A DNA stretch of 64,000 bases from an uncultured Flavobacteriaceae bacterium (GTDB taxonomy: Bacteria; Bacteroidota; Bacteroidia; Flavobacteriales; Flavobacteriaceae). A program made the position numbers and the translations under genes. Below are positions 15,733 through 27,233 of the stretch, in pieces; the first letter of the stretch is position 1; each line of letters opens with the position of its first letter. The stretch covers positions 248,001-312,000 of the forward strand of contig CANNAC010000002.1 in assembly GCA_947502495.1 (NCBI GenBank). Direction: 5' to 3'. The notes beneath the pieces are model-generated. The model did no database searches. It worked only from the letters and a program-made list of their open reading frames with translations, and was not told the DNA's origin.

Positions 15733-16197
15733 ATGAGTTTAGAAAAGACAACCGTAACACTTAACAGATTAGAATCGCATATAGAAAACCATAGTATTTC
15801 TAACCCTAAAGTATCAAAAGGGGATATCGCTTGGCATATAGATCACAGTCTCAAAATAATCAATGCTGTTGTTATTTCTACTCAAAAATCAGATCCAAAT
15901 ACATTTAAAAACAATTTTAGTTTTTTAGGAAAGCTATTCTTTACCCTTGGTTTTTTTCCTAGAGGAAAAGCAAAAGCACCAAAGTATGTTACACCACCTG
16001 AAGTGGTTTTAAAAGAAGACCTTATAAGTCAGTTACAAGAAGCTAAAGCAAATATGAATAGTATAGCCGACTTAGATAAGAACGCCTATTTTAAACATCC
16101 GCTATTCGGACATGTGAACAAAAAAAGAATCTATACTTTTTTGGTTCTGCACACGACACATCATTTGAAAATTATGGAGGATATTCTGAAAAAATAG
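15733..16197 (+). CDS. DinB-like / DUF1569 family protein
   Basis: A 154-residue protein with a DinB/YfiT-like four-helix bundle. Candidate metal ligands are the His residues of WHIDHSLK (residues 34-41) and HTTHHLKI (near residue 140), the pattern expected of this superfamily. Some relatives are thiol-dependent transferases or hydrolases, most are uncharacterised. The PPxVVLKED and FGHVNKKR segments fit the DUF1569 branch. The gene stands alone and is bracketed by two direct repeats (15545-15625 and 16222-16301), which suggests that it entered or moved as a unit. Confidence 0.78.
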   Translation: MSLEKTTVTLNRLESHIENHSISNPKVSKGDIAWHIDHSLKIINAVVISTQKSDPNTFKNNFSFLGKLFFTLGFFPRGKAKAPKYVTPPEVVLKEDLISQLQEAKANMNSIADLDKNAYFKHPLFGHVNKKRIYTFLVLHTTHHLKIMEDILKK

Positions 16198-16411: not shown

Positions 16412-17182
16412 TTATTGTGCACTCCAACCTCCATCTAAAACAAAGGAGGAACCTGTTATGGTTGTGGAGCTATCTTTTGCCAGCAATATTGCCATATCGG
16501 TAATCGCTTCTAGAGGCACAAATTGTTTTACTGCTTGCTTTTTAAGCATCACTTTTTCTACAACCTCCTCTTCGGTCATATGATGTGCTTTGGCTTGGTC
16601 TTTTATTTGTCCGATAACCAAAGGTGTTTTTACATAACCCGGACAAATAGCATTACACGTAATATTAAAAGCTGCGCCCTCTAAAGCCAAGACTTTGGTC
16701 ATACCAATCACACCATGTTTTGCGGTGACGTAAGCCGATTTAAATTCGGAAGCTCGAATGCCATGCACCGAAGAGACATTTATTATTCTACCAAACTTTT
16801 GTTTTTTCATCTGTTTCCAAACGGCTTTAGAAGCGTAAAAAACAGCGTTCATATTTATAGCTATAATATTTTCGTATTTCTTGTTTGGAAAATCTTCTAT
16901 TGGCGAAACAAATTGTATTCCGGCATTATTCACTAATACATGCAAGGCACCAAAGGTTTTTATGGTTTCTTCTACTAAACCTTCAATAGCTTCCGCTTGC
17001 AATAAATTTGCATTAGAAAAAGCTACTTTCACCTTATATCTCTCACCAACTTCCTTTGCTATTTCTGCGCCATTTTTTTCTAAACCATGAAACATAATAG
17101 CATATCCTTCCTTAGCAAATTGATTTGCTATTCCTAAACCAATTCCGCTGGTACTACCTGTAATAAGAACGGTTTTATTCAT
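16412..17182 (-). CDS. 3-hydroxybutyrate dehydrogenase (short-chain dehydrogenase)
   Basis: A 256-residue NAD-dependent short-chain dehydrogenase that by sequence belongs to the D-3-hydroxybutyrate dehydrogenase group, oxidising 3-hydroxybutyrate to acetoacetate. Seen: the cofactor motif TGSTSGIG (7-14), NNAG (85-88), catalytic Ser138, Tyr151 and Lys155 (SAYVTAKHG), and the C-terminal GSSFVLDGGWSAQ. The substrate-lid region (PLVIGQIKDQAKAHHMTEEE) matches the 3HB dehydrogenase type. It overlaps the upstream hydrolase gene by 8 bases and is the last gene of a long minus-strand cluster with a receptor, ligase and symporter. Confidence 0.88.
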   Translation of the reverse strand: MNKTVLITGSTSGIGLGIANQFAKEGYAIMFHGLEKNGAEIAKEVGERYKVKVAFSNANLLQAEAIEGLVEETIKTFGALHVLVNNAGIQFVSPIEDFPNKKYENIIAINMNAVFYASKAVWKQMKKQKFGRIINVSSVHGIRASEFKSAYVTAKHGVIGMTKVLALEGAAFNITCNAICPGYVKTPLVIGQIKDQAKAHHMTEEEVVEKVMLKKQAVKQFVPLEAITDMAILLAKDSSTTITGSSFVLDGGWSAQ

Positions 17183-17957
17183 CTTCTAAAAATTTTTCAA
17201 GTGCGACATTAAAAGCTTCTGGCTGATCGATAACAACACCATGTCTAGAATTTTCAATAACCACCAAGGAAGCGTGTTGTAATGTATCTACATAAGCTTG
17301 CTTAAAGGCAATTGGCGTATAATCCATATCGGATGCCACCACTAAAGTTCTCGTTTTAATATCCTTAATTCTATCTCCTAATCCCCAATCCATTAAGGTT
17401 ACAAAGGATTTGAAGTACGCATTGTAATCATTCTTTTTGCAACGTGCTTCAAATTGGTTTCGCATATCTATTTGATGCGCTTCGGGAAACATATTAAATG
17501 AAATTTCTTTGGCTAATGGTTCTATACCTTTTGTTTTTAAAAATGCTGTTCGATTCTTTAAAAGGTCTTCGCCCGTTTTTCCCATATCGTTAAAATCGGG
17601 ACCACTATTTACAATCACTAGATTATCTAAGTATTCTGGATGTTTTGCAGCCATTTCAAAAGCTACAGCGCCACCCATGGAAAAACCAACAAAAGTTGCT
17701 TTTTTAATCGCTAGTTTATCTAATAACTGCTTTACATCTTCGGTCATTAATTCTACACCATACGCATCTAATGGTTTTGTAGAATCTCCGTGACCTCTTA
17801 AATCTAAGGCAATAACTCGATATTTTTCAGAAAAGAAAGGGACTTGACCGTCCCAATCTTTTTTTGTGGATCCTAAACCATGAAGTAACAGAAGTACATC
17901 TCCTTTTCCATAATCTTCATAATCAAGTTCTATATCATTAACTTGTATTTTTGGCAT
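17175..17957 (-). CDS. Cytosolic alpha/beta hydrolase
   Basis: A 260-residue alpha/beta-hydrolase without a signal peptide. HGLGSTKKDWDGQ (oxyanion hole, near residue 26), ALDLRGHGDSTKP, the nucleophile elbow GFSMGG with Ser near residue 94, an acidic residue in the ASDMDYTP stretch and the C-terminal His in NSRHGVVIDQP make up a complete catalytic triad. Such enzymes cleave esters, lactones or C-C bonds. Overlap with the 3-hydroxybutyrate dehydrogenase gene suggests that it hydrolyses an imported ester to a hydroxyacid, but the substrate is not known. Confidence 0.87.
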   Translation of the reverse strand: MPKIQVNDIELDYEDYGKGDVLLLLHGLGSTKKDWDGQVPFFSEKYRVIALDLRGHGDSTKPLDAYGVELMTEDVKQLLDKLAIKKATFVGFSMGGAVAFEMAAKHPEYLDNLVIVNSGPDFNDMGKTGEDLLKNRTAFLKTKGIEPLAKEISFNMFPEAHQIDMRNQFEARCKKNDYNAYFKSFVTLMDWGLGDRIKDIKTRTLVVASDMDYTPIAFKQAYVDTLQHASLVVIENSRHGVVIDQPEAFNVALEKFLEDE

Positions 17958-17968
17958 GATTTGGAAGC

Positions 17969-20464
17969 TTAGTTAATAGTTGCTGGTTTCTTTTTAAAGA
18001 AGTTCACCTTGTACTTTAACTCAAAAGAAACTAATGTTTCAATGACAGGAGAAGCTACAAACTCTCTATTTTTAGCATTAAATAAGTTTGTAATACTTAA
18101 ACCAAGTGATAAGTTATCATTAAAGTTATATCCTGCATTTGCATCTACGGAGAAACCACCTAATTGTCCGTAGTTCCAAGTTCTTCCTACCTGAGCGTTT
18201 TCAACAATTTCATTGATACCATCTCCATCTTGATCTTGTGTTTCTGCAGCTACATTAATACCTGAGAAGAAATCATATTTTTGCACATATCTTCCGAAGA
18301 GCGCACCATAGAATTTACCTTTTCCGTAATGAAGACCAACACTAAACTTGTGGTTAGGTGTATTAATTGGTAATTCACTTTCTAAAACTTGTCCGTCTAA
18401 ATTCCCATCATTATCCAAATCATTTTTATCTAGATCTCTATCAAAATACGAATAGTTTACAGAGGTTCTAAAACTATCATTAAAGTAATAGTTTAATCCT
18501 ACATCTAGTCCGTAGGTATCTACATGACCAAAATTTAAGTACGTCAATACAAAAGCTCCTGTAGAACCATCTACAACATCACCAATTGGTTGGTCACCAA
18601 CATGCGTTACATTGTTACCATTTGCTGCATCTGCAATATTACGCAACGGACTAATAAAGTTATCCGATTGGTTGTAATACGCATTAGTATCTATAAATAA
18701 TTTTTCGGTAAGTTTTCCTTTGTATCCTATTTCATAAGAATGAATAGTTTCTACATCTAACTTTTCAATTTTTGTACCATCGGTTAAGGTGAATCCTTCT
18801 CCATTTCCTAAAACTAATCCACCAAATAGGTTTCCTTTAAGATTTAAAATAGAAGGAACAGCAATACCTTTACCGTATGTTATTCTGAAAGTTCCGCTTT
18901 TTACTTTTTTAGTAATAGCTGCTTTTGGAATAAAGTTAGAACCGTATAATTCGTGATTATCTATTCTTCCTCCTAACAAAAATCCCCATCCAGAATCGTC
19001 TAATTTATATTCCATTTGTGTGTACACTCCTGTTTGATCTAAATCAATTCCGCCTTCATCTAAAAGGTACGTACCATCAGAATCCGCCATATCTAATTGA
19101 TATTGCGCACCTAATGTTAAGTAGAATTTATTCCAGTTATTATTGTATTGCGCTTCGGCATTAAAACGTTTGGAAGCATCTTTAAAAAGCGCACCACGTT
19201 GCAATGCAACACCGTCACCAAAATTAGCTCCTGTTTGTAACCATTGCTCAGCATAAGAACGCTCACGAGCTTCTGCTTCTGAAAAACCATTTTCTACAAA
19301 CGACACATAATTTTGTGTACGCTGATTCATAGCGTAGGTTTTATCGGTCTTACTCCATGTATAATAAGTGTTTGCAAAAAAGTTTTTAGAAACAAACTTT
19401 ACTTGGGCAACATCGATACTCCAATCTTTTATTTGGTTACGACCTGCACTTGTAATACCAATATTATTGCTATTACTATGCCCGTAATACCCAGATAATT
19501 CGGAACTTTTTGTTGGTTTATAAAATAACGAAGCACCATATTTTTGGGAGTCGAAATCACGATCAAGATCTAATTCTTTATATGCTGTTGTTCCAACATA
19601 CACACTATCTGCGTAATCAAATTCTGTTCCTTGCGATCTTTCAAAATGAAATTTATAAGCAAATTTATCATTCAGTACTTGTGCATGTCTTAATCTTGCT
19701 GTTACCACGTTTTGGTTTCCAGCTCCTACTGCAAATGTTGTTCCTTCAGACTGTCTAGGGTTTTTAGTAATCGTACTTACTAATCCGTTGTGTGCATTTG
19801 GGCCATACAATGTTCCGTTTGGGCCTAATAATATTTCCACTCTAGAGATATCATCTTTAGTTACTGTAGAAAAAGAACCCATTGGTAATCCTGTAGCAAT
19901 TAATGTAGATAGTCTATCATCTGTTACTTGTAAATTTTTAGAATTAAAAGCAGAATTAAATCCTCTAATATTAATTCCAGTTCCTAAAACACCACTACGT
20001 ACAAAATCAACACCTTTTTGTCTTGCTGCTAATTCCCCAATATTAAAACTAGGAAACTCTTCAATATCCCTAGCGGTAATTACATTTACTGTAGCTGGTA
20101 CATCTGTAATTTTTTGTGGTTTTTTCCCTGCGGTTATAATAACTTCATCTAAAACACTATTAGATTCTTTTAATTGGGAGTTTAATGCTGTTACGCTTCC
20201 GGCAGTTACGGATATACTTTGTTCTAGCGTTTCAAAACCAATATAAGATATAGACACCGTATGTGTACCTTCTGCAACATCTTCAATGGTAAAATTACCA
20301 TCAAAATCGGTAACGCTTCCTTTGTCTAAACTTTTAATATATACTGCTGCTCCGGCTAAAGGCATACCACTTGCTTCGGTAATTGTTCCTGTTACGCTTC
20401 CAGAATCTTGCGCATGAATAACCAGAGAGCTAATCAAGGTTATTAAGAATAGTAGTTTTTTCAT
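17969..20464 (-). CDS. TonB-dependent receptor with carboxypeptidase-like domain
   Basis: An 831-residue outer-membrane receptor. Signal peptide (residues 1-18, ending IHAQ), then a carboxypeptidase-regulatory-like beta domain at about 22-105 (GTITEASGMPLAGAAVYIK, TDFDGNFTIEDV), a plug at about 115-235 (ITDVPATVNVITARDIEE, INIRGFN, LYGPNAHNGLVSTITKNP) and a barrel to the end. No SusD partner gene is present, so it is not a classical polysaccharide utilisation receptor. It lies 11 bases upstream of the cytosolic hydrolase gene; with the symporter, ligase, esterase and dehydrogenase it would supply the outer-membrane step of one catabolic pathway. Confidence 0.9.
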   Translation of the reverse strand: MKKLLFLITLISSLVIHAQDSGSVTGTITEASGMPLAGAAVYIKSLDKGSVTDFDGNFTIEDVAEGTHTVSISYIGFETLEQSISVTAGSVTALNSQLKESNSVLDEVIITAGKKPQKITDVPATVNVITARDIEEFPSFNIGELAARQKGVDFVRSGVLGTGINIRGFNSAFNSKNLQVTDDRLSTLIATGLPMGSFSTVTKDDISRVEILLGPNGTLYGPNAHNGLVSTITKNPRQSEGTTFAVGAGNQNVVTARLRHAQVLNDKFAYKFHFERSQGTEFDYADSVYVGTTAYKELDLDRDFDSQKYGASLFYKPTKSSELSGYYGHSNSNNIGITSAGRNQIKDWSIDVAQVKFVSKNFFANTYYTWSKTDKTYAMNQRTQNYVSFVENGFSEAEARERSYAEQWLQTGANFGDGVALQRGALFKDASKRFNAEAQYNNNWNKFYLTLGAQYQLDMADSDGTYLLDEGGIDLDQTGVYTQMEYKLDDSGWGFLLGGRIDNHELYGSNFIPKAAITKKVKSGTFRITYGKGIAVPSILNLKGNLFGGLVLGNGEGFTLTDGTKIEKLDVETIHSYEIGYKGKLTEKLFIDTNAYYNQSDNFISPLRNIADAANGNNVTHVGDQPIGDVVDGSTGAFVLTYLNFGHVDTYGLDVGLNYYFNDSFRTSVNYSYFDRDLDKNDLDNDGNLDGQVLESELPINTPNHKFSVGLHYGKGKFYGALFGRYVQKYDFFSGINVAAETQDQDGDGINEIVENAQVGRTWNYGQLGGFSVDANAGYNFNDNLSLGLSITNLFNAKNREFVASPVIETLVSFELKYKVNFFKKKPATIN

Positions 20465-20623
20465 AATTAGAAATGATGTTTTAAGTTAGATTATGATGGC
20501 AATCTATTGTGAAAAAGGAAATAAACAGTAGTGAAATTTAGTAATGAGAAGTATGACTTTGGATTAAAAAAACAAAAATAACATCTAAAAAACCCATATA
20601 TAAAGGAGTTTTACCGCAAAATT

Positions 20624-22039
20624 TTAAATGTATGACTTTAGTTTAAAAAACGCTTCCGGTAAATTATTTGAAAGTGTATCAATGACCTTTATCATCAATT
20701 GTTTCTGATTTTTTGTGGGTTGCACCCCTTTAATTGGTGCTTTAATTTCCTCTAACAAACGTGTAGAATTTATTTTGCCTTCCATATATCTTGAAAGCGA
20801 TATACTCCATGAAATATTAGGCACGTAATTACTTTGTTTTTGTCGTTCGCTTTCCTTTTCTATCAAATTGAATTTTGCAGCAAGCTTCAGTACTTCTTCG
20901 TACTTTTCTTGTATTACTAGCACATTGATATACGATGTGAAAAAGTGATGCCAACGATGTTTCAGCACTTCTTTTTTATATTTTATTAAAAATGTTTTTG
21001 CTGTCGCTTCGGCAAGGTCGTTTTTTTGAAGTTCGGATAAGACACGAACTTGATAGGAACAATACCCAATTTTTTGATGGTAGTTATGTGTTTCTTTATA
21101 CCATTCTTGATACGCATCTAATAATGCAAAAGCTTTTTCCGGACTGTTATTTCGCAATAAAATAGCCACCAAATTATTCAAATACATCAGGGTATCATTA
21201 TTGTTTTGCCTTATAGACAAATAGCCATAAAATTCTGCTTCTTCAAATTCGTCTTGTTTAGAATGCAGCAACACACGACTTGCATAATAATTAGAAAGCA
21301 AACGTCTGGAATACATTTCGCCTTGACTAAAATAATAGTCAATTTGGTCGAAAATGATTTTCAACTTATCATTTTCATTATAATTGGTGTAGATAAAAGC
21401 CAGTAAAACAAATGCTTGATACCTGTTTTTTCCATCTATATTTTTATCATTAAAAACAGCGAGCAACCAAGTTTCTAAGTGCTTTGTCTCGTTATTATTT
21501 AGGGTATACTGGTTGGTGATTTCTGTTGTTGCTGTGTAGAGTTTTTCGTTAATCTCTTTAACCTCTGCATAATTCTCTTTATAGGTTTCAATGAAATCTG
21601 CTATTATTTGATGGTCTTTATAGCGCATTCTAACCAACAAATAGGATTTATATTCTTTAGCCAAATCATATAAAATCTGAAAATTAAAATCCAAGTTCTT
21701 ATATGTAGAGATATAATATAAGAATTCTTTTTCCTCACTAGAAGCTATGGCATCGGTAAGTATTTTTTGCTTTAATGGCATCAACCAACCAATAGTTACA
21801 TCGACATCAATATTAGCTAATTTTTTTTCGATCCAATCTTTAATATAGGAATATTTGCGCTTATTTATGCTAGTATCAAAATCTACAAATGCCTTTTGAG
21901 ATAGAGCATTAGAAATAATCAACTCCATAATTTGAAGTTTTTCTACATCTGTAAATTGATATCTAGTTTGCAGATATTTGGCTTCATTTGGCAGTATGGT
22001 TTTACTAAATTCTGTAAATTTTTTAAGTTTCGTTTTCAT
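20624..22039 (-). CDS. Helical-repeat (TPR-like) protein of unknown function
   Basis: A 471-residue soluble protein with no signal peptide and no family I recognise. It is almost entirely alpha-helical by composition, with amphipathic helix pairs in the C-terminal two thirds (for example YYASRVLLHSKQDEFEEAEF and AFALLDAYQEWYKETHNY) that look like degenerate tetratricopeptide repeats. No DNA-binding, catalytic or receiver motif was seen. It sits between the exported esterase and the TonB receptor on the same strand, with a 44-base gap upstream and 159 downstream, so it may be a pathway-specific regulator or scaffold; this is inference from place only. Confidence 0.75.
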   Translation of the reverse strand: MKTKLKKFTEFSKTILPNEAKYLQTRYQFTDVEKLQIMELIISNALSQKAFVDFDTSINKRKYSYIKDWIEKKLANIDVDVTIGWLMPLKQKILTDAIASSEEKEFLYYISTYKNLDFNFQILYDLAKEYKSYLLVRMRYKDHQIIADFIETYKENYAEVKEINEKLYTATTEITNQYTLNNNETKHLETWLLAVFNDKNIDGKNRYQAFVLLAFIYTNYNENDKLKIIFDQIDYYFSQGEMYSRRLLSNYYASRVLLHSKQDEFEEAEFYGYLSIRQNNNDTLMYLNNLVAILLRNNSPEKAFALLDAYQEWYKETHNYHQKIGYCSYQVRVLSELQKNDLAEATAKTFLIKYKKEVLKHRWHHFFTSYINVLVIQEKYEEVLKLAAKFNLIEKESERQKQSNYVPNISWSISLSRYMEGKINSTRLLEEIKAPIKGVQPTKNQKQLMIKVIDTLSNNLPEAFFKLKSYI

Positions 22040-22083
22040 TAAACACCAAATGAAATTAAGTAATTATTATTTCTCGTTTTGTA

Positions 22084-23028
22084 TTAATTAGCCTCCATAA
22101 ATTGCTGAATAAGCTGATTAACTTCCGTCGGTTTTTCAAATTGCACAAAATGACCAGCATCTTCTACATAGGCTACTTTTACTTCTTTTATTTTTTGGGA
22201 AGCTATTTCACCAACATCTTGGATGGTTAAAGTAGGATTTAAATACCGATTAGGAATAAGCATATCTTTATTACCAAAAACAACTAATGTCTTTTTTGTA
22301 ATATTCTCTAAATCTGTATACACCGGATCGTTTAGCATTCCAGAAATACTATTCACAATAGCGGTACAATGTGCATCAAAATCTGTAGCCAATTTAATTT
22401 GTTTTCTATCTTCAATCATTTTAGAAGTCCCTTCAGGCAACTGATAAAAGTTTAAGGCATAGTTTTTTTCAATTTGTTCATCTGTTGTGTTCTTCACCAT
22501 ATCGACAGTGAAAAAACTTTTTAGCATATTAGCACCAGCTTCCGAAAACTGCTCCAAACCTGCTGGAGCAATCAAAATTAGTTTTTCAATATCTGTTGCA
22601 TAAGAAGTAGCTAGTTTAATACTTGCTTGTCCGCCCATAGAATGTCCAACAAGAACCACGTTTTTCAATTCTAATTTTGCAATGAACTTGTGTGAAATTT
22701 CAGCGAAATAGGTTGGCGTATAATCTACTTCTGGCTTAGAAGACTTTCCGTAACCTGGCAAATCTAAAGCAACGCATGTGTAGTGTTCTTTTAAGTACTT
22801 TATGTTTTCGGACCATGCATCAGAATTACTACTTAATCCATGTACAAACAAGATTGTTTTCTCACCAACTCCTTCTTTAATATAGCTTATTTCTGTACTG
22901 TCAATTACCACAGCATGCGATTTAAAATCATATTGAGAAATTATATCTTTCATAAGTTTATCCGATTTTTGCGAAAACATAATGGTGCTAATTAAAGTGA
23001 AAATAAATAGTAGCGTAAGTCTTTTCAT
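22084..23028 (-). CDS. Exported alpha/beta hydrolase (predicted periplasmic esterase)
   Basis: A 314-residue alpha/beta hydrolase with a signal peptide (residues 1-20, ending TIMFSQ), so it should act in the periplasm or outside. HGLSSNSDAW near residue 63, DLPGYGKSS, the nucleophile elbow GHSMGG near residue 132, GNKDMLIP with the likely acid and DAGHFVQFEKP with the catalytic His complete the triad. It overlaps the acyl-CoA ligase gene by 4 bases (ATGA). In context it would cleave an ester brought through the TonB receptor and release an acid for the symporter. The substrate class is inferred. Confidence 0.87.
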   Translation of the reverse strand: MKRLTLLFIFTLISTIMFSQKSDKLMKDIISQYDFKSHAVVIDSTEISYIKEGVGEKTILFVHGLSSNSDAWSENIKYLKEHYTCVALDLPGYGKSSKPEVDYTPTYFAEISHKFIAKLELKNVVLVGHSMGGQASIKLATSYATDIEKLILIAPAGLEQFSEAGANMLKSFFTVDMVKNTTDEQIEKNYALNFYQLPEGTSKMIEDRKQIKLATDFDAHCTAIVNSISGMLNDPVYTDLENITKKTLVVFGNKDMLIPNRYLNPTLTIQDVGEIASQKIKEVKVAYVEDAGHFVQFEKPTEVNQLIQQFMEAN

Positions 23029-24530
23029 TGTTCTGATTTAATAGTATTAAAATAATTATATAATTTCTTTCTAGAAACTTTACCCAAACTAGTTAGCGGA
23101 ATTTCATCTAAAATAAACAGGTGTTTTGGATGCTTAAAAGCGACCAGATTCGTTTTTAAAACTTCCCGAATTGCTTCCACGGAAAGATCTTCATTTTCTG
23201 TGGCTACAAATGCTATGCCGCATTCTCCCCATTTTTCATCCTTCACACTTAAAACTACTGCTTTCTTTATTCCTTTTATTAATTCCAATTGCACTTCAAT
23301 TTCTTGGGGATAAATATTTTCACCACCAGAAATATACATGTCGTTTTTGCGTCCTTTCATATACAAAAAACCTTCTTCATCACTATACGCAAAGTCGCCA
23401 GTAAACAGCCATCCTTTTTTTATTTTACTACTAGTTTTAACGGAATTATTCCAATATCCCGGAGTTACTATATCCCCTTTAATACAGAGTTCGCCAACCT
23501 CATTTGCTTTAAGACGCTCGCCTTTTTCATTGACAATTTTCAGATCTAAATAAAAATTAGGCTTCCCTATAGAATTTGGTTTAAGCGCTGCCATTTTATG
23601 ATGCAAAGAAGTAATACTTGGTCCGGCTTCGGTTAAACCATAACCAGGCCTTATGTAAATGTTTTTTTCGGTTTTCCAGAAAGAAACGAGTTCTGACGGC
23701 ACTTTTTCTCCACCAGAAATAATGTAACGCATTTTTTCTAGGTTGACATTTTTAAAAACATCCGTTTTCTGCATCATTAATAGCATGGTTGGCAAAGCCA
23801 TAAACAAAGTCGTTTTGTTGCGTTCTAAAAGGCATAATATGTTTTCGGCATCGAACTTTTCTAACATACCAATATGTGCTCCTTTATGCAAAAGTGGCGT
23901 TATAAAAACATTCCATCCAGATGTATGATACGGCGGCAAGGTATTTATTGTGGAATCTCGAAAGGTAATCCCCAACTGCATCGATGTATTTAAGCTATTC
24001 CAAAATAACATTTTATTGGTATAAATAACCCCTTTTGGCGCACCGGTTGTTCCTGAAGTATAAAATATAAATAAGGCATTATCCTCTTTAATAGAATAGG
24101 TTTTTACTGCATGATTTTCTTCATTATGAAAAAAGCGTTCTAGCTTGTTCACAGAGATTGTTTGTATATTTTCTAGTGGTAATTGCGCTAATTTATCTTG
24201 ATGATTTTCATTATATATAAATAAACAAGGCGTACAGTCTACAAGAAGTTTTGCTATTTCATTTACCGGCAAGCGATAATTTAAAGGAACCATTACCAAA
24301 CCCATACGCTGGCAAGCCACAAAGAGCACCATATATTCTAAGCTATGCTCTGCTAAAACAGCTATTCTATCGCCTTCTTCTAAATCGAGTTCTGTAAATT
24401 TATGAATTAACCGATTGGCATAGATATGCAAGTCGTTATACGTATAACTAATATTGGTGTCATACGATGTTAATGCAATTTTATCGGGCGTATAATCTGC
24501 CCATTTAGCTGTCCAATCTAGTGCGTCCAC
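23025..24530 (-). CDS. AMP-forming acyl-CoA synthetase/ligase
   Basis: A 501-residue member of the ANL adenylate-forming family, which activates a carboxylic acid with ATP and transfers it to CoA. Motifs: FYTSGTTGAPKGV near residue 155 (P-loop), GYGLTEAGPS near 300 (A5), GWLFTGDFAY near 376 (A7), GRKNDMYISGGENIYPQEIE near 391 (A8) and the catalytic Lys in LTSLGKVSRKKL near the C-terminus (A10). The overall type resembles medium/long-chain acyl-CoA and MenE-like ligases; the acid cannot be read from sequence. Translation begins at a GTG (24528-24530) inside the last 26 bases of the symporter gene. Confidence 0.9.
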   Translation of the reverse strand: MDALDWTAKWADYTPDKIALTSYDTNISYTYNDLHIYANRLIHKFTELDLEEGDRIAVLAEHSLEYMVLFVACQRMGLVMVPLNYRLPVNEIAKLLVDCTPCLFIYNENHQDKLAQLPLENIQTISVNKLERFFHNEENHAVKTYSIKEDNALFIFYTSGTTGAPKGVIYTNKMLFWNSLNTSMQLGITFRDSTINTLPPYHTSGWNVFITPLLHKGAHIGMLEKFDAENILCLLERNKTTLFMALPTMLLMMQKTDVFKNVNLEKMRYIISGGEKVPSELVSFWKTEKNIYIRPGYGLTEAGPSITSLHHKMAALKPNSIGKPNFYLDLKIVNEKGERLKANEVGELCIKGDIVTPGYWNNSVKTSSKIKKGWLFTGDFAYSDEEGFLYMKGRKNDMYISGGENIYPQEIEVQLELIKGIKKAVVLSVKDEKWGECGIAFVATENEDLSVEAIREVLKTNLVAFKHPKHLFILDEIPLTSLGKVSRKKLYNYFNTIKSEQ

Positions 24531-26016
24531 TTGCTTCTTTATTAAAATCTAATTTATATATAATATAACCAATTACTAGAGATGTAATAATTCCTATTGC
24601 AGCAGAAACCCCTGGATTATTTACAGGCTCTTGCATGTACGGTGTTATTCTTCCGTAGTAAATACCAAAATGTACTACTATTGCCGTAATACTTGCTGTG
24701 AAAACAGCCCTTAAAGAAACATTTTCTAAAAATGTACCAAACAGAACAGGGACAAAAGCCGCTGCAAAGTAAGCATAGACGCCATTTTGAGCAAAAATAG
24801 CCACACTAACATCTGGGTTTTTGATCTGTTCCCAACTTAATAAAAAGCTTACAATACCAAGAACAATAATAACTACTTTATTAATTGAAATTGTTTTTTC
24901 AGTAAACTTATCCTTAAACAAAGGGTTGATGATATCGGAAGTAATAGTTATAGACAGGGATTGAATTAAGCTTTCTAAGGTAGATAATCCTGCCGAAATT
25001 AAACCCACTACAATCACTAAACCAATACCAACAGAAAACTTAGTAACTACGTAGGTTGGTATAATTTCATCCATTCTTAATTTTTCGCCATTGACCATAA
25101 AGTCTGGAAAACTAATTCGAGCATATAAACCAACAATTACCACTAAAAAGAAAACAATCATAAAAGCAATCCCACTAAACAAATAGGTATTGATTTTTGA
25201 AGAATCTTTTAATAATAGGGATTTTGTAATAATGTGTGGCTGACAAACAATAGCAACACCAATTACTATTTGCGTAAAAATGATTTCAAAATAATCTCGA
25301 AATAAAAAGCTTGAAGGATTTGTTGTTTTTGTAAGATTAGGATCTATTGCATTTAATTTATCGAAGAAACCAGAAACACCATCGGTAAAATATTCTGATC
25401 CAGAACTAATTAAAATAATAGCTACAACAAACATAATGATGGCTTGAATAGTGTTGGTATACACCATGGAGTTTGCGCCACCAAACATCATATAACCAAA
25501 CACAAATGCGGTAATTCCCATAAGCACATAAAAAGGATCCGCATTTAGGGATTTGGAAATAACTTGTGTTAATCCTACATTAATTAGTACGATAAAAGTA
25601 ATAAGCAAGAGTGCTATAATACCGAAGAAAAATGCATAGCTTTTACTTTTATAGCGTTTCCCTATCCATTGTGCCATCGTTGTGGCTTTCACAGAATTAC
25701 CTTGTTTTACAAACCCTTTAGTAAAAACAATTAATGATACAAATGCAGCAATAGGTAATACCACAGCAAAAGAGATTACTCCAGAAATGCCGTATAGCGC
25801 TATAAATCCCGGATTAATAATAAAGGTTGCAGCACTTGTCATGGAAGCTGCTAAAGACAAACCAACCACCCAAGAAGGGAAACCGATATTACCAACGGCA
25901 TAATCTTTAATACTTGTGTTTTTTCGAGCGCCTCGTATAACGAAGAATAATATTACTGCAGCATACACTGCTAATAAAATCCACATGTAAGTTACTAACT
26001 TGTCTGATGCTATCAT
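24505..26016 (-). CDS. Sodium:solute symporter (SSS family)
   Basis: A 503-residue inner-membrane transporter with 13 or so hydrophobic segments, of the sodium:solute symporter family (sialic acid, proline, monocarboxylate and pantothenate carriers). Blocks such as SMTSAATFIINPGFIALYG near residue 65 and GLISAGLSTLESLIQSLSITITSDI in the middle are typical, the latter holding the conserved Na2-site serines. The ATG at 26014-26016 is preferred over the TTG eight codons upstream. As the first gene of the cluster it should import the acid that the overlapping ligase gene then activates. A promoter-like box lies about 80 bases upstream. Confidence 0.9.
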   Translation of the reverse strand: MIASDKLVTYMWILLAVYAAVILFFVIRGARKNTSIKDYAVGNIGFPSWVVGLSLAASMTSAATFIINPGFIALYGISGVISFAVVLPIAAFVSLIVFTKGFVKQGNSVKATTMAQWIGKRYKSKSYAFFFGIIALLLITFIVLINVGLTQVISKSLNADPFYVLMGITAFVFGYMMFGGANSMVYTNTIQAIIMFVVAIILISSGSEYFTDGVSGFFDKLNAIDPNLTKTTNPSSFLFRDYFEIIFTQIVIGVAIVCQPHIITKSLLLKDSSKINTYLFSGIAFMIVFFLVVIVGLYARISFPDFMVNGEKLRMDEIIPTYVVTKFSVGIGLVIVVGLISAGLSTLESLIQSLSITITSDIINPLFKDKFTEKTISINKVVIIVLGIVSFLLSWEQIKNPDVSVAIFAQNGVYAYFAAAFVPVLFGTFLENVSLRAVFTASITAIVVHFGIYYGRITPYMQEPVNNPGVSAAIGIITSLVIGYIIYKLDFNKEASGRTRLDS

Positions 26017-26093
26017 TTCCTTTTTTGTCTTTAAAAACAAATAACAAACTTTATATTATTTGGATTTCAAATATTCGCCTTTTCAAAGGTATG

Positions 26094-26101
26094 ACTTTTA
26101 G
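26094..26101 (-). promoter_or_regulatory. Promoter-like box of the symporter-ligase cluster
   Basis: TACCTTTG on the minus strand matches TAnnTTTG, 78 bases ahead of the symporter start. Confidence 0.45.
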
Positions 26102-26229
26102 AAATTAAAACGAAAAAACAGCCAAACACATTATAATAACTAGCAAAACACTTTATATGACTTTTATATTTTTAAACGCTCTTTGATGCATACGGCTAGT
26201 AAGTAGACCTTTTTTAATTATAGCGCATA

Positions 26230-26594: not shown

Positions 26595-27233
26595 TTAAGC
26601 TTTACCACCATCTAATTCGTCTTGCCATTTTTTAAGCTCGTCCCACTTACCATCAGCAGCTAATTTAGCTTGTGCTGGCCAAGTATCGGTTACGTGACTA
26701 CCACGAACGCCTGCAATGATTTCAGAAATTTTTGCTGCATCTGTTTTAGCTAAATCTGCGAAAGTCGCGATTCCTGCTTCTACTAATGTTTCAGCAATTT
26801 TAGGTCCAATACCTTCAACTTTCTTTAAATCATCTGCTTTACCTGTTGCTTTTTTAGCAGCTGGTTTTGCTTCTGCCTTTGGAGCAGCGGCTTTTTTAGC
26901 TGGAGCAGCTTTTTTAGCTCCTGAAGCTACAATGCTCTCAATCACGATTTCCGTTAAGGCTTGTCTGTGTCCATTCTTTACACGGTAACCTTTTCTTCTT
27001 TTCTTTTTGAAAACAATAACTTTATCACCTTGAAGGTGCTTTAAGACTTTCACACTTACTTGTGCTCCATCTATAGCTGGGGCGCCTACAGTTACATTGC
27101 TACCATCTGCAATTAAAAGAACATTATCGAAAGACATTGTCTTTCCTTCTTCTGATGCTAAACGGTTAACAAAAACTTTTTGGTCTTTTTCAACTTTAAA
27201 TTGATGCCCTGCTATCTCTACAATTGCGTACAT
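26595..27233 (-). CDS. rplU: 50S ribosomal protein L21 with a helix-hairpin-helix C-terminal extension
   Basis: A 212-residue bL21, about twice the usual 100-105 residues. Residues 1-103 are a complete L21 (MYAIVEIAGHQFKVEKDQ to GHRQALTEIVIESI). A linker rich in Ala, Lys and Pro (residues 105-130) joins a helix-hairpin-helix-like domain at about 131-175 (LKKVEGIGPKIAETLVEAGI), followed by a short acidic helix. Similar extended L21 proteins occur in Bacteroidota. The HhH domain usually binds nucleic acid, so it may contact rRNA or another factor on the ribosome surface; its role is unknown. Confidence 0.95.
   Translation of the reverse strand: MYAIVEIAGHQFKVEKDQKVFVNRLASEEGKTMSFDNVLLIADGSNVTVGAPAIDGAQVSVKVLKHLQGDKVIVFKKKRRKGYRVKNGHRQALTEIVIESIVASGAKKAAPAKKAAAPKAEAKPAAKKATGKADDLKKVEGIGPKIAETLVEAGIATFADLAKTDAAKISEIIAGVRGSHVTDTWPAQAKLAADGKWDELKKWQDELDGGKA

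Follow-up and report, generated by a model that had tools for sequence, protein, structure and literature searches.

Introduction

In polysaccharide utilisation loci of the SusCD type, a TonB receptor and its SusD partner are encoded together with an exported hydrolase, an importer and catabolic enzymes, among them a carbohydrate-active enzyme. Polyhydroxybutyrate (PHB), which is important among the storage polymers of bacteria and is also sold as a biodegradable plastic, is mobilised inside cells by a depolymerase, an oligomer hydrolase and a 3-hydroxybutyrate dehydrogenase (BDH), and a 3-hydroxybutyrate oligomer hydrolase and BDH are reportedly the subject of a study in Paracoccus; to our knowledge, the uptake of PHB breakdown products by cells is poorly known. 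Regulators of the RRNPP type join an N-terminal helix-turn-helix or three-helix domain to a TPR domain. The subject of this work is a cluster of seven genes at positions 16412-26016 of a 64,000-nucleotide stretch of DNA, the whole of which is termed the window, from an uncultured Flavobacteriaceae bacterium (contig CANNAC010000002.1). It is suggested, with a probability of about 0.7, that this cluster contains all that is needed for the use of (R)-3-hydroxybutyrate esters from outside the cell, which would most likely be short oligomers shed by PHB. What is new here is the gene for an orphan protein of 471 residues (P471) and a set of tandem AAAGTCAYAC boxes at a fixed spacing, which together look like a dedicated switch.

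Passages of three published reports touch on related ground: they name Saprospiraceae among the eight families of dominant operational taxonomic units on PHBH films in seawater (PMC5877338), give a higher relative expression of the 'polyhydroxybutyrate metabolism' subsystem in Polaribacter BAL334 (PMC9671461) and place polyhydroxyalkanoate (PHA) enzymes in an Oricola bin (PMC7029141). The cluster is not described in these passages, and in the titles and abstract openings of the open-access papers listed, a scope outside which most subscription journals and all of bioRxiv lie, no TonB-type uptake locus for PHB breakdown products was found.

Results

The seven genes lie on the minus strand in the transcription order SSS, ACSL, ABHe, P471, TBDR, ABHc and BDH. 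SSS (24505-26016) encodes a sodium:solute symporter (PF00474, 125.6 bits) that probably starts at the ATG at 26016 to give 503 residues, a longer form with a TTG start also being open; none of the NCBIfam models reached its cut-off with this protein. ACSL (23025-24530, GTG start) encodes an acyl-CoA ligase of 501 residues (PF00501, 257.6 bits; PF13193, 41.9 bits), and ABHe (22084-23028) an alpha/beta hydrolase or esterase (PF00561, 96.4 bits) that is probably exported, as read by eye from its signal-like N-terminus. P471 (20624-22039) is a helical-repeat protein outside any Pfam or NCBIfam family and a candidate cluster-specific regulator. TBDR (17969-20464) is a TonB-dependent receptor of 831 residues that stands without SusD and carries a plug and a carboxypeptidase-regulatory domain (PF00593, 102.4 bits; PF07715, 57.5 bits; PF13715, 75.5 bits). 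The cluster ends with ABHc (17175-17957), a cytosolic alpha/beta hydrolase (PF00561, 100.4 bits), and BDH (16412-17182), a predicted (R)-3-hydroxybutyrate dehydrogenase of the short-chain dehydrogenase/reductase (SDR) family. A preliminary description of this DNA had named six of these genes; all six were confirmed as minus-strand open frames, the domain calls (symporter, ligase, two hydrolases, receptor and SDR) agree with Pfam and NCBIfam, and the overlaps of 26 bp between SSS and ACSL (24505-24530), 4 bp between ACSL and ABHe (23025-23028) and 8 bp between ABHc and BDH (17175-17182) match the coordinates exactly. The gene for P471, between the esterase and the receptor, had been overlooked. 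The statement that this is not a polysaccharide locus agrees with the Pfam search, in which none of the seven proteins could be assigned to a SusD, glycosidase or sulfatase family, and a polysaccharide locus was rejected on that ground; the receptor scores 102.1 bits on the SusC/RagA model, below the cut-off of 368.25.

Conservation of the gene order, which had been named as a check, holds strongly. In a scan of one genome per species, covering 84,980 species, 125 relatives of P471 were found and the best 80 kept; the record titles of all 80 name Bacteroidota, and the relatives include Lacinutrix, Oceanihabitans, Winogradskyella, Gelidibacter, Tenacibaculum, Mangrovimonas, Aureibaculum, Flavobacterium, Psychroflexus, Christiangramia, Fulvivirga, Saprospiraceae, Bacteroidales and others. 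Loci of the kind found in the window are termed type I, and 49 of them came from the scan (L036-L085 without L083); some genera are represented by more than one species, and one locus appears twice (L067/L068). A further 36 P471 loci (L031-L035, L083 and L086-L115), many on short contigs, are of other kinds. The full set of seven genes, in unchanged order, is found in 47 of the 49 type I loci, the other two (L037 and L080) being interrupted by contig ends. SSS was recovered from 49 of the 50 type I loci counted for it, the exception being L037, which is cut by its contig. Outside the genus, the genes flanking the cluster differ when read by eye. P471 occurs in 14 of 249 Flavobacteriaceae genomes, and also in 6 of 7 genomes of the genus. 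Nine of the 14 have a close P471 (59-100% identity) and the seven genes in identical order, an order seen in the window and in all eight close relatives, and five have a distant one (32-33% identity) in a rearranged form of the cluster. When the ten best candidates per genome were scored in the same 249 genomes, BDH (E<=1e-60) was found in nine, which are the same nine genomes that carry type I P471. The cluster is a real module. The duplicated locus, L067 and L068 of Mangrovimonas sp. TPBH4, has mirror-image coordinates on one contig of 418,880 bases (NZ_LBIO01000037.1), where 66348 and 352533 add up to the length plus one, and this suggests a palindromic assembly artefact.

The dehydrogenase scores 330.8 bits on the 3-hydroxybutyrate dehydrogenase model TIGR01963 (PHB_DH, cut-off 307.05) and 313.2 bits on NF009093 (cut-off 258), falls below the cut-off of NF009931 (264.3 against 340 bits) and can be aligned with the solved D-3-hydroxybutyrate dehydrogenase 1wmb. 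The catalytic Ser-Tyr-Lys is kept in 48 of 48 members, as are the positions that we take to be the substrate contacts of the P. fragi enzyme (Gln, His, Lys, Gln, Trp and Trp), one Trp excepted: the position of Trp187 is Tyr in all 48. Model score, kept residues and context point to (R)-3-hydroxybutyrate as the compound on which BDH would act. In the hydrolases, Ser130-Asp255-His293 of ABHe is kept in 50 of 50 members, and Ser93, His239 and both candidate aspartates (Asp210 and Asp212) of ABHc in 49 of 49. The best solved relative of ABHc is the esterase 5egn; the second and third, with a match that spans residues 11-118, are chains of a PHB depolymerase (8ynv and 8ynw). This depolymerase comes well down the list of solved relatives for ABHe. 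ABHc is presumed to be an oligomer or dimer hydrolase, SSS to be the inner-membrane importer of 3-hydroxybutyrate, and ACSL to be the enzyme that activates acetoacetate or 3-hydroxybutyrate. The best solved relatives of ACSL are a fatty-acyl-CoA synthase and a feruloyl-CoA synthetase, and it stays below the cut-off of each of the 25 NCBIfam models shown. The earlier proposal of oligo-3-hydroxybutyrate as a substrate is well supported by the BDH score, the pocket residues and the thiolase and PHA synthase genes of related loci described below; the exact substrate may be a monomer, dimer, oligomer or mixed ester.

A search of the window's own genome with the class I PHA synthase model TIGR01838, on which the class III PhaC of L105 and L101 score 141.7 and 126.0 bits, gave no match; the substrate is therefore probably external and an internal storage role unlikely.

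Four exact copies of AAAGTCATA lie in the window (1.26 expected; four reached in 3 of 100 shuffles), all on the strand of the cluster and in two pairs. Before SSS, the distal copy is at 26156-26164 and the proximal copy at 26090-26098, with TTATTTG, a -7-like element, at 26038-26044, 54 bp from the proximal box. Before TBDR, the distal copy (20631-20639) overlaps the 3' end of the P471 gene, the proximal copy is at 20552-20560, and the -7-like element TAGATTG at 20500-20506 is again 54 bp from it. Box copies were counted in 49 type I loci (the window, L036, L038-L082, L084 and L085), where 90 of 99 sense copies of AAAGTCAYA fall in the two upstream regions, which make up 21,539 of 1,062,704 bp (2%); antisense copies number none in these regions and eight elsewhere. 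The box is found in 28 of 49 SSS and 37 of 49 TBDR regions; the highest numbers in 30 dinucleotide shuffles were 2 and 3. The TBDR regions hold 54 copies, 25 of them inside the final part of the P471 gene and 29 in non-coding DNA. Within the coding distal box the lysine codon is AAG in 46 of 47 cases, against 28% of other P471 lysines (P = 4e-24, a value that is too small since the loci are related); given this bias, the coding box is constrained at the DNA level. Successive AAAGTC motifs are 65-67 bp apart before SSS (15 of 17) and 77-80 bp apart before TBDR (29 of 33). The presence of the same boxes before both gene groups suggests their co-regulation.

The box pair is found twice in the 4.07-Mb own genome, both times at the cluster, and its reversed-pattern control not at all. 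Sixty related genomes hold the pair at 16 places in nine genomes: ten are at a P471 locus by coordinates, two are on small contigs of G250 and not tied to one, and four are elsewhere (G001, G022, G260 and one of two in G028), the reversed control likewise giving four. In G252, which has P471, the exact pair was not found. Single AAAGTCAYAC sites in the own genome number 16 (reversed-pattern control 7), three of them in the cluster. The other 13 yield no second operon by eye, and a wider AAAGTCAYAC regulon was rejected accordingly; two of the 13 lie 5.4 and 6.9 kb before a CoA-transferase pair and adjoin other short genes.

The distance from box to promoter is largely fixed. Where both elements are present, the nearer AAAGTC is 54 bp from TTATTTG in 27 of 33 SSS promoters and 55 bp in two, and 54 bp from TAGATTG in 31 of 40 TBDR promoters and 53 bp in one. 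A relaxed geometry, with T[TA][AG][AT]TTG at 53-55 bp, is seen in 30 of 49 SSS and 33 of 49 TBDR type I promoters or, by genus group and with the window counted as one, in 11 of 18 and 13 of 18. It was not found before SSS in Aureibaculum, Flavobacterium, Polaribacter, a Flavobacteriaceae metagenome-assembled genome, Sediminicola, Psychroflexus and Christiangramia, nor before TBDR in Aureibaculum, the same metagenome-assembled genome, Sediminicola, Psychroflexus and Christiangramia; the SSS promoters of Aureibaculum, Flavobacterium and Psychroflexus are without any AAAGTC.

The five rearranged loci of Flavobacteriaceae (type II, L031-L035) contain SSS, ABHe, TBDR, ACSL, P471 and AAAGTC boxes; BDH and ABHc are missing and a FabG/PhaB-like SDR stands in place of BDH. 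All five SSS upstream regions contain AAAAGTC. Six of the 12 box sites have TAnnTT[TG] at 53-55 bp, against a mean of 0.16 per offset over all 12, and the geometry is present in six of ten divergent promoters: both sides of L031 and L035, the SSS side of L034 and the reductase side of L033. AAAAGTC ranks only fourth of 210 7-mers of the same composition in the rearranged loci, so the claim of a type II box rests on position and geometry; a k-mer count over 24 upstream regions of rearranged loci gave, for lengths 7 to 10, nothing above the shuffle maximum.

Across all 36 other P471 loci the common companions are the SDR (30), ABHe (26), ACSL (21), a FabH-like protein (18), SSS (18) and TBDR (13). 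The SDR of L031 passes two broad subfamily models and misses two FabG models, with 289.7 bits (cut-off 296) and, on TIGR01830, 279.4 bits (297.75). The FabH-like protein (for example L034:17015-18001) keeps the active Cys in 17 of 17 members of more than 250 residues examined, and in the same 17 has Thr and Tyr where the His and Asn align that, with Cys, we take to form the condensing triad of FabH. Two Bacteroidales loci (L090 and L094) have a thiolase gene (TIGR01930, 500.8 and 497.3 bits; cut-off 240.55) placed between those of P471 and the SDR. PhaC-like genes lie near P471 in four loci (L101, L105, L106 and L114), and in the two tested, L101 and L105, they pass the class III cut-off of 365.3 with 444.2 and 434.7 bits. 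The adjoining PhaE passes the Pfam cut-off of 25.7 in the same two loci (35.1 and 32.7 bits respectively); on the NCBIfam model the L105 protein has 21.3 bits against a cut-off of 154.95 and the L101 protein no match, and a phasin-like protein in L105 is below its cut-off. Seven loci (L090, L094, L105, L106, L109, L114 and L115) have, between the ligase and the exported hydrolase, a lipoprotein-like gene and an uncharacterised protein of approximately 530 residues, whose L094 copy has no Pfam or NCBIfam match; this protein is a possible alternative outer-membrane component where no receptor is seen.

P471 itself has no Pfam or NCBIfam family (two Pfam matches below cut-off at E up to 10), no PHROGs match better than E 0.16 and no sequence relative in the PDB better than E 0.039. 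The predicted structure is all helical (pLDDT 91), and its structural matches are helical-repeat proteins, mostly of the TPR or PPR type, none of them below E 0.001. RapI (4i1a) is matched with a Foldseek E of 0.022, an rmsd of 9.5 and a TM-score of 0.65 by target length and 0.52 by query length. A model of the first 121 residues, built from 39 selected sequences (pLDDT 84.9), has no fold match in the PDB (best E 4.6); these residues include the invariant K60-R61-K62-Y63.

Two neighbouring genes may be recorded. Beside the cluster, the plus strand at 15733-16197 encodes a small protein that DUF1569 matches weakly, at 22.8 bits against a cut-off of 21. On its other side, at 26595-27233 on the minus strand, is a ribosomal protein L21-like gene with a long C-terminal extension that resembles, by eye, the C-terminus of a PhaE-like protein (L105:6730-8292), itself a match to L21, phasin PhaH and NuoE models.

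Discussion

The proposed pathway is as follows. Oligomers would pass the outer membrane through the TonB receptor and be trimmed by the exported hydrolase ABHe, the sodium symporter would bring in the monomer (or dimer), and the cytosolic hydrolase ABHc would complete hydrolysis. BDH would then yield acetoacetate, and the ligase, or a CoA-transferase pair encoded elsewhere in the genome, acetoacetyl-CoA for thiolysis. Both gene groups would be activated by the tandem AAAGTCAYAC boxes, the nearer of which starts 54 bp before the -7-like element, and P471 is the likeliest protein to work through these boxes. We infer the direction of flux, the order of the steps and activation in preference to repression.

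In both cluster types of Flavobacteriaceae, P471 is the sole gene that is neither an enzyme nor a transporter by family and, on this ground, it is the best candidate for the regulator, with putative DNA binding, at odds a little better than even. A bolder proposal, tentative and given rather less than an even chance, is that P471 founds a new family of activators, in which a six-helix N-terminal domain of no known fold with its KRKY motif and a TPR-like sensor body would read tandem AAAGTCAYAC boxes, of which the nearer starts 54 bp before a -7 element, and switch on a dedicated oligo-3-hydroxybutyrate system of Bacteroidota that feeds acetyl-CoA or, with a PHA synthase, possibly PHB re-storage. 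The competing explanation, which concerns the regulator part only and is compatible with any substrate, is that the boxes are bound by a protein encoded elsewhere and that P471 is a scaffold or a partner of a granule or enzyme. TPR-like solenoids often bind proteins, P471 is near reductase and PhaC genes in L101 and L105, and the homologues L092:9992-11425 and L108:9962-11413 lie away from any cluster, among genes that look like housekeeping genes by eye, an arrangement that may fit either an unlinked regulator or another function. Against this stand the singular place of P471 among the enzymes and transporters of type I and type II clusters and the confinement of the paired boxes in the genome to the P471 cluster, and this explanation is placed somewhat short of an even chance.

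Several results weigh against the reading of the cluster as a P471-controlled locus for PHB oligomers. P471 has no DNA-binding domain recognisable by family, PDB-sequence or fold searches. AAAGTC is not present in 9 of 49 SSS and 4 of 49 TBDR regions, the promoter geometry holds for just 5 of 12 SSS promoters in Winogradskyella and 1 of 9 TBDR promoters in Gelidibacter, and in the distant loci L083 and L086-L115 it is only suggestive: offset 54 ranks first for A[AT]AGTCA, at 3 of 171 sites, of which two come from near-identical loci, but has no clear lead when looser boxes are used, and the geometry is not claimed for these loci. Neither hydrolase reaches the cut-offs of the PHA depolymerase models NF050089 (300; ABHe 93.6 and ABHc 98.6 bits) and TIGR02240 (250.6; 38.7 and 39.5 bits). 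The PHB depolymerase family PF10503 has 0 matches in the own genome, other depolymerase families not having been searched, and a further depolymerase may be required for growth on the intact polymer; taken with the lack of a PHA synthase match, this indicates that the substrate probably reaches the cell from outside and as fragments. A CoA-transferase pair encoded elsewhere could take over the step proposed for the ligase. In the loci beyond type I, the reductase misses the cut-off of the acetoacetyl-CoA reductase PhaB model TIGR01829 (302.1; L031 257.1 and L105 253.7 bits), that of L105 passes the FabG model TIGR01830 (299.4 against 297.75 bits), and a FabH-like protein, with 261.8 bits on NF006829 (cut-off 249), stands beside the type II reductase. 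Since the models fail to separate FabG from PhaB, the label 'PhaB-like' rests on context and, given these scores and the FabH-like neighbour, type II loci could handle other acyl chains.

These last points raise the possibility that the cluster serves other 3-hydroxyacid esters or lactones, such as mixed hydroxyvalerate or longer 3-hydroxyacyl esters or hydroxybutyrylated natural products, with 3-hydroxybutyrate as one product among others. The hydrolases and the ligase are indeed from broad families in which no NCBIfam model shown reached its cut-off, and the position of Trp187 in the P. fragi pocket is Tyr in all 48 BDH members. This scenario is unlikely for two reasons: first, BDH is over the cut-off of the 3-hydroxybutyrate model and second, some related loci encode PhaC, PhaE and thiolase, a sign of C4 3-hydroxyacyl chemistry. 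A far less probable scenario is that the cluster draws on PHB stored by the cell itself and that its transporters are incidental. BDH and oligomer-type hydrolases also serve PHB mobilisation, and PhaC-like genes, with PhaE, do occur near P471 elsewhere; the idea was nevertheless rejected for want of a PHA synthase match in the genome, on a model that a class III PhaC should have hit, and all 47 uncut type I loci have the receptor, the exported hydrolase and the symporter. The grouping of unrelated catabolic genes by chance, each family except P471 being common on its own and the genome having 29 TonB receptor matches, is ruled out for practical purposes by the shared gene order, the differing flanks and the identical genome sets of BDH and type I P471.

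If the preferred reading of the cluster, as a locus for external 3-hydroxybutyrate esters, is right, the locus would serve as a marker for the ability to take up PHB fragments across Bacteroidota and would make the question of uptake directly testable; it also adds a candidate regulator family with mapped sites.

Compared with known systems, the cluster resembles SusCD-type loci in bringing an outer-membrane TonB receptor, an exported hydrolase, an importer and catabolic enzymes into one locus, and differs in having hydrolases, an acyl-CoA ligase and a 3-hydroxybutyrate dehydrogenase and no SusD, glycosidase or sulfatase family. With intracellular PHB mobilisation it shares the logic of hydrolase and BDH; it differs by its TonB receptor and symporter, and by a genome with no PHA synthase match. 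Its dehydrogenase is like the TIGR01963 enzymes (1wmb) in its score and in its catalytic and pocket residues, and unlike them in the Tyr at the Trp187 equivalent. In its predicted structure, P471 is similar to RRNPP-type TPR regulators (RapI, 4i1a) in that a helical-repeat body follows an N-terminal helical domain, whereas this domain is unlike any PDB fold and other TPR or PPR proteins rank higher. Finally, type I and type II P471 loci are alike in SSS, ABHe, TBDR, ACSL, P471 and AAAGTC boxes, and type II loci differ in that a FabG/PhaB-like SDR takes the place of BDH, ABHc is missing and a FabH-like protein is added.

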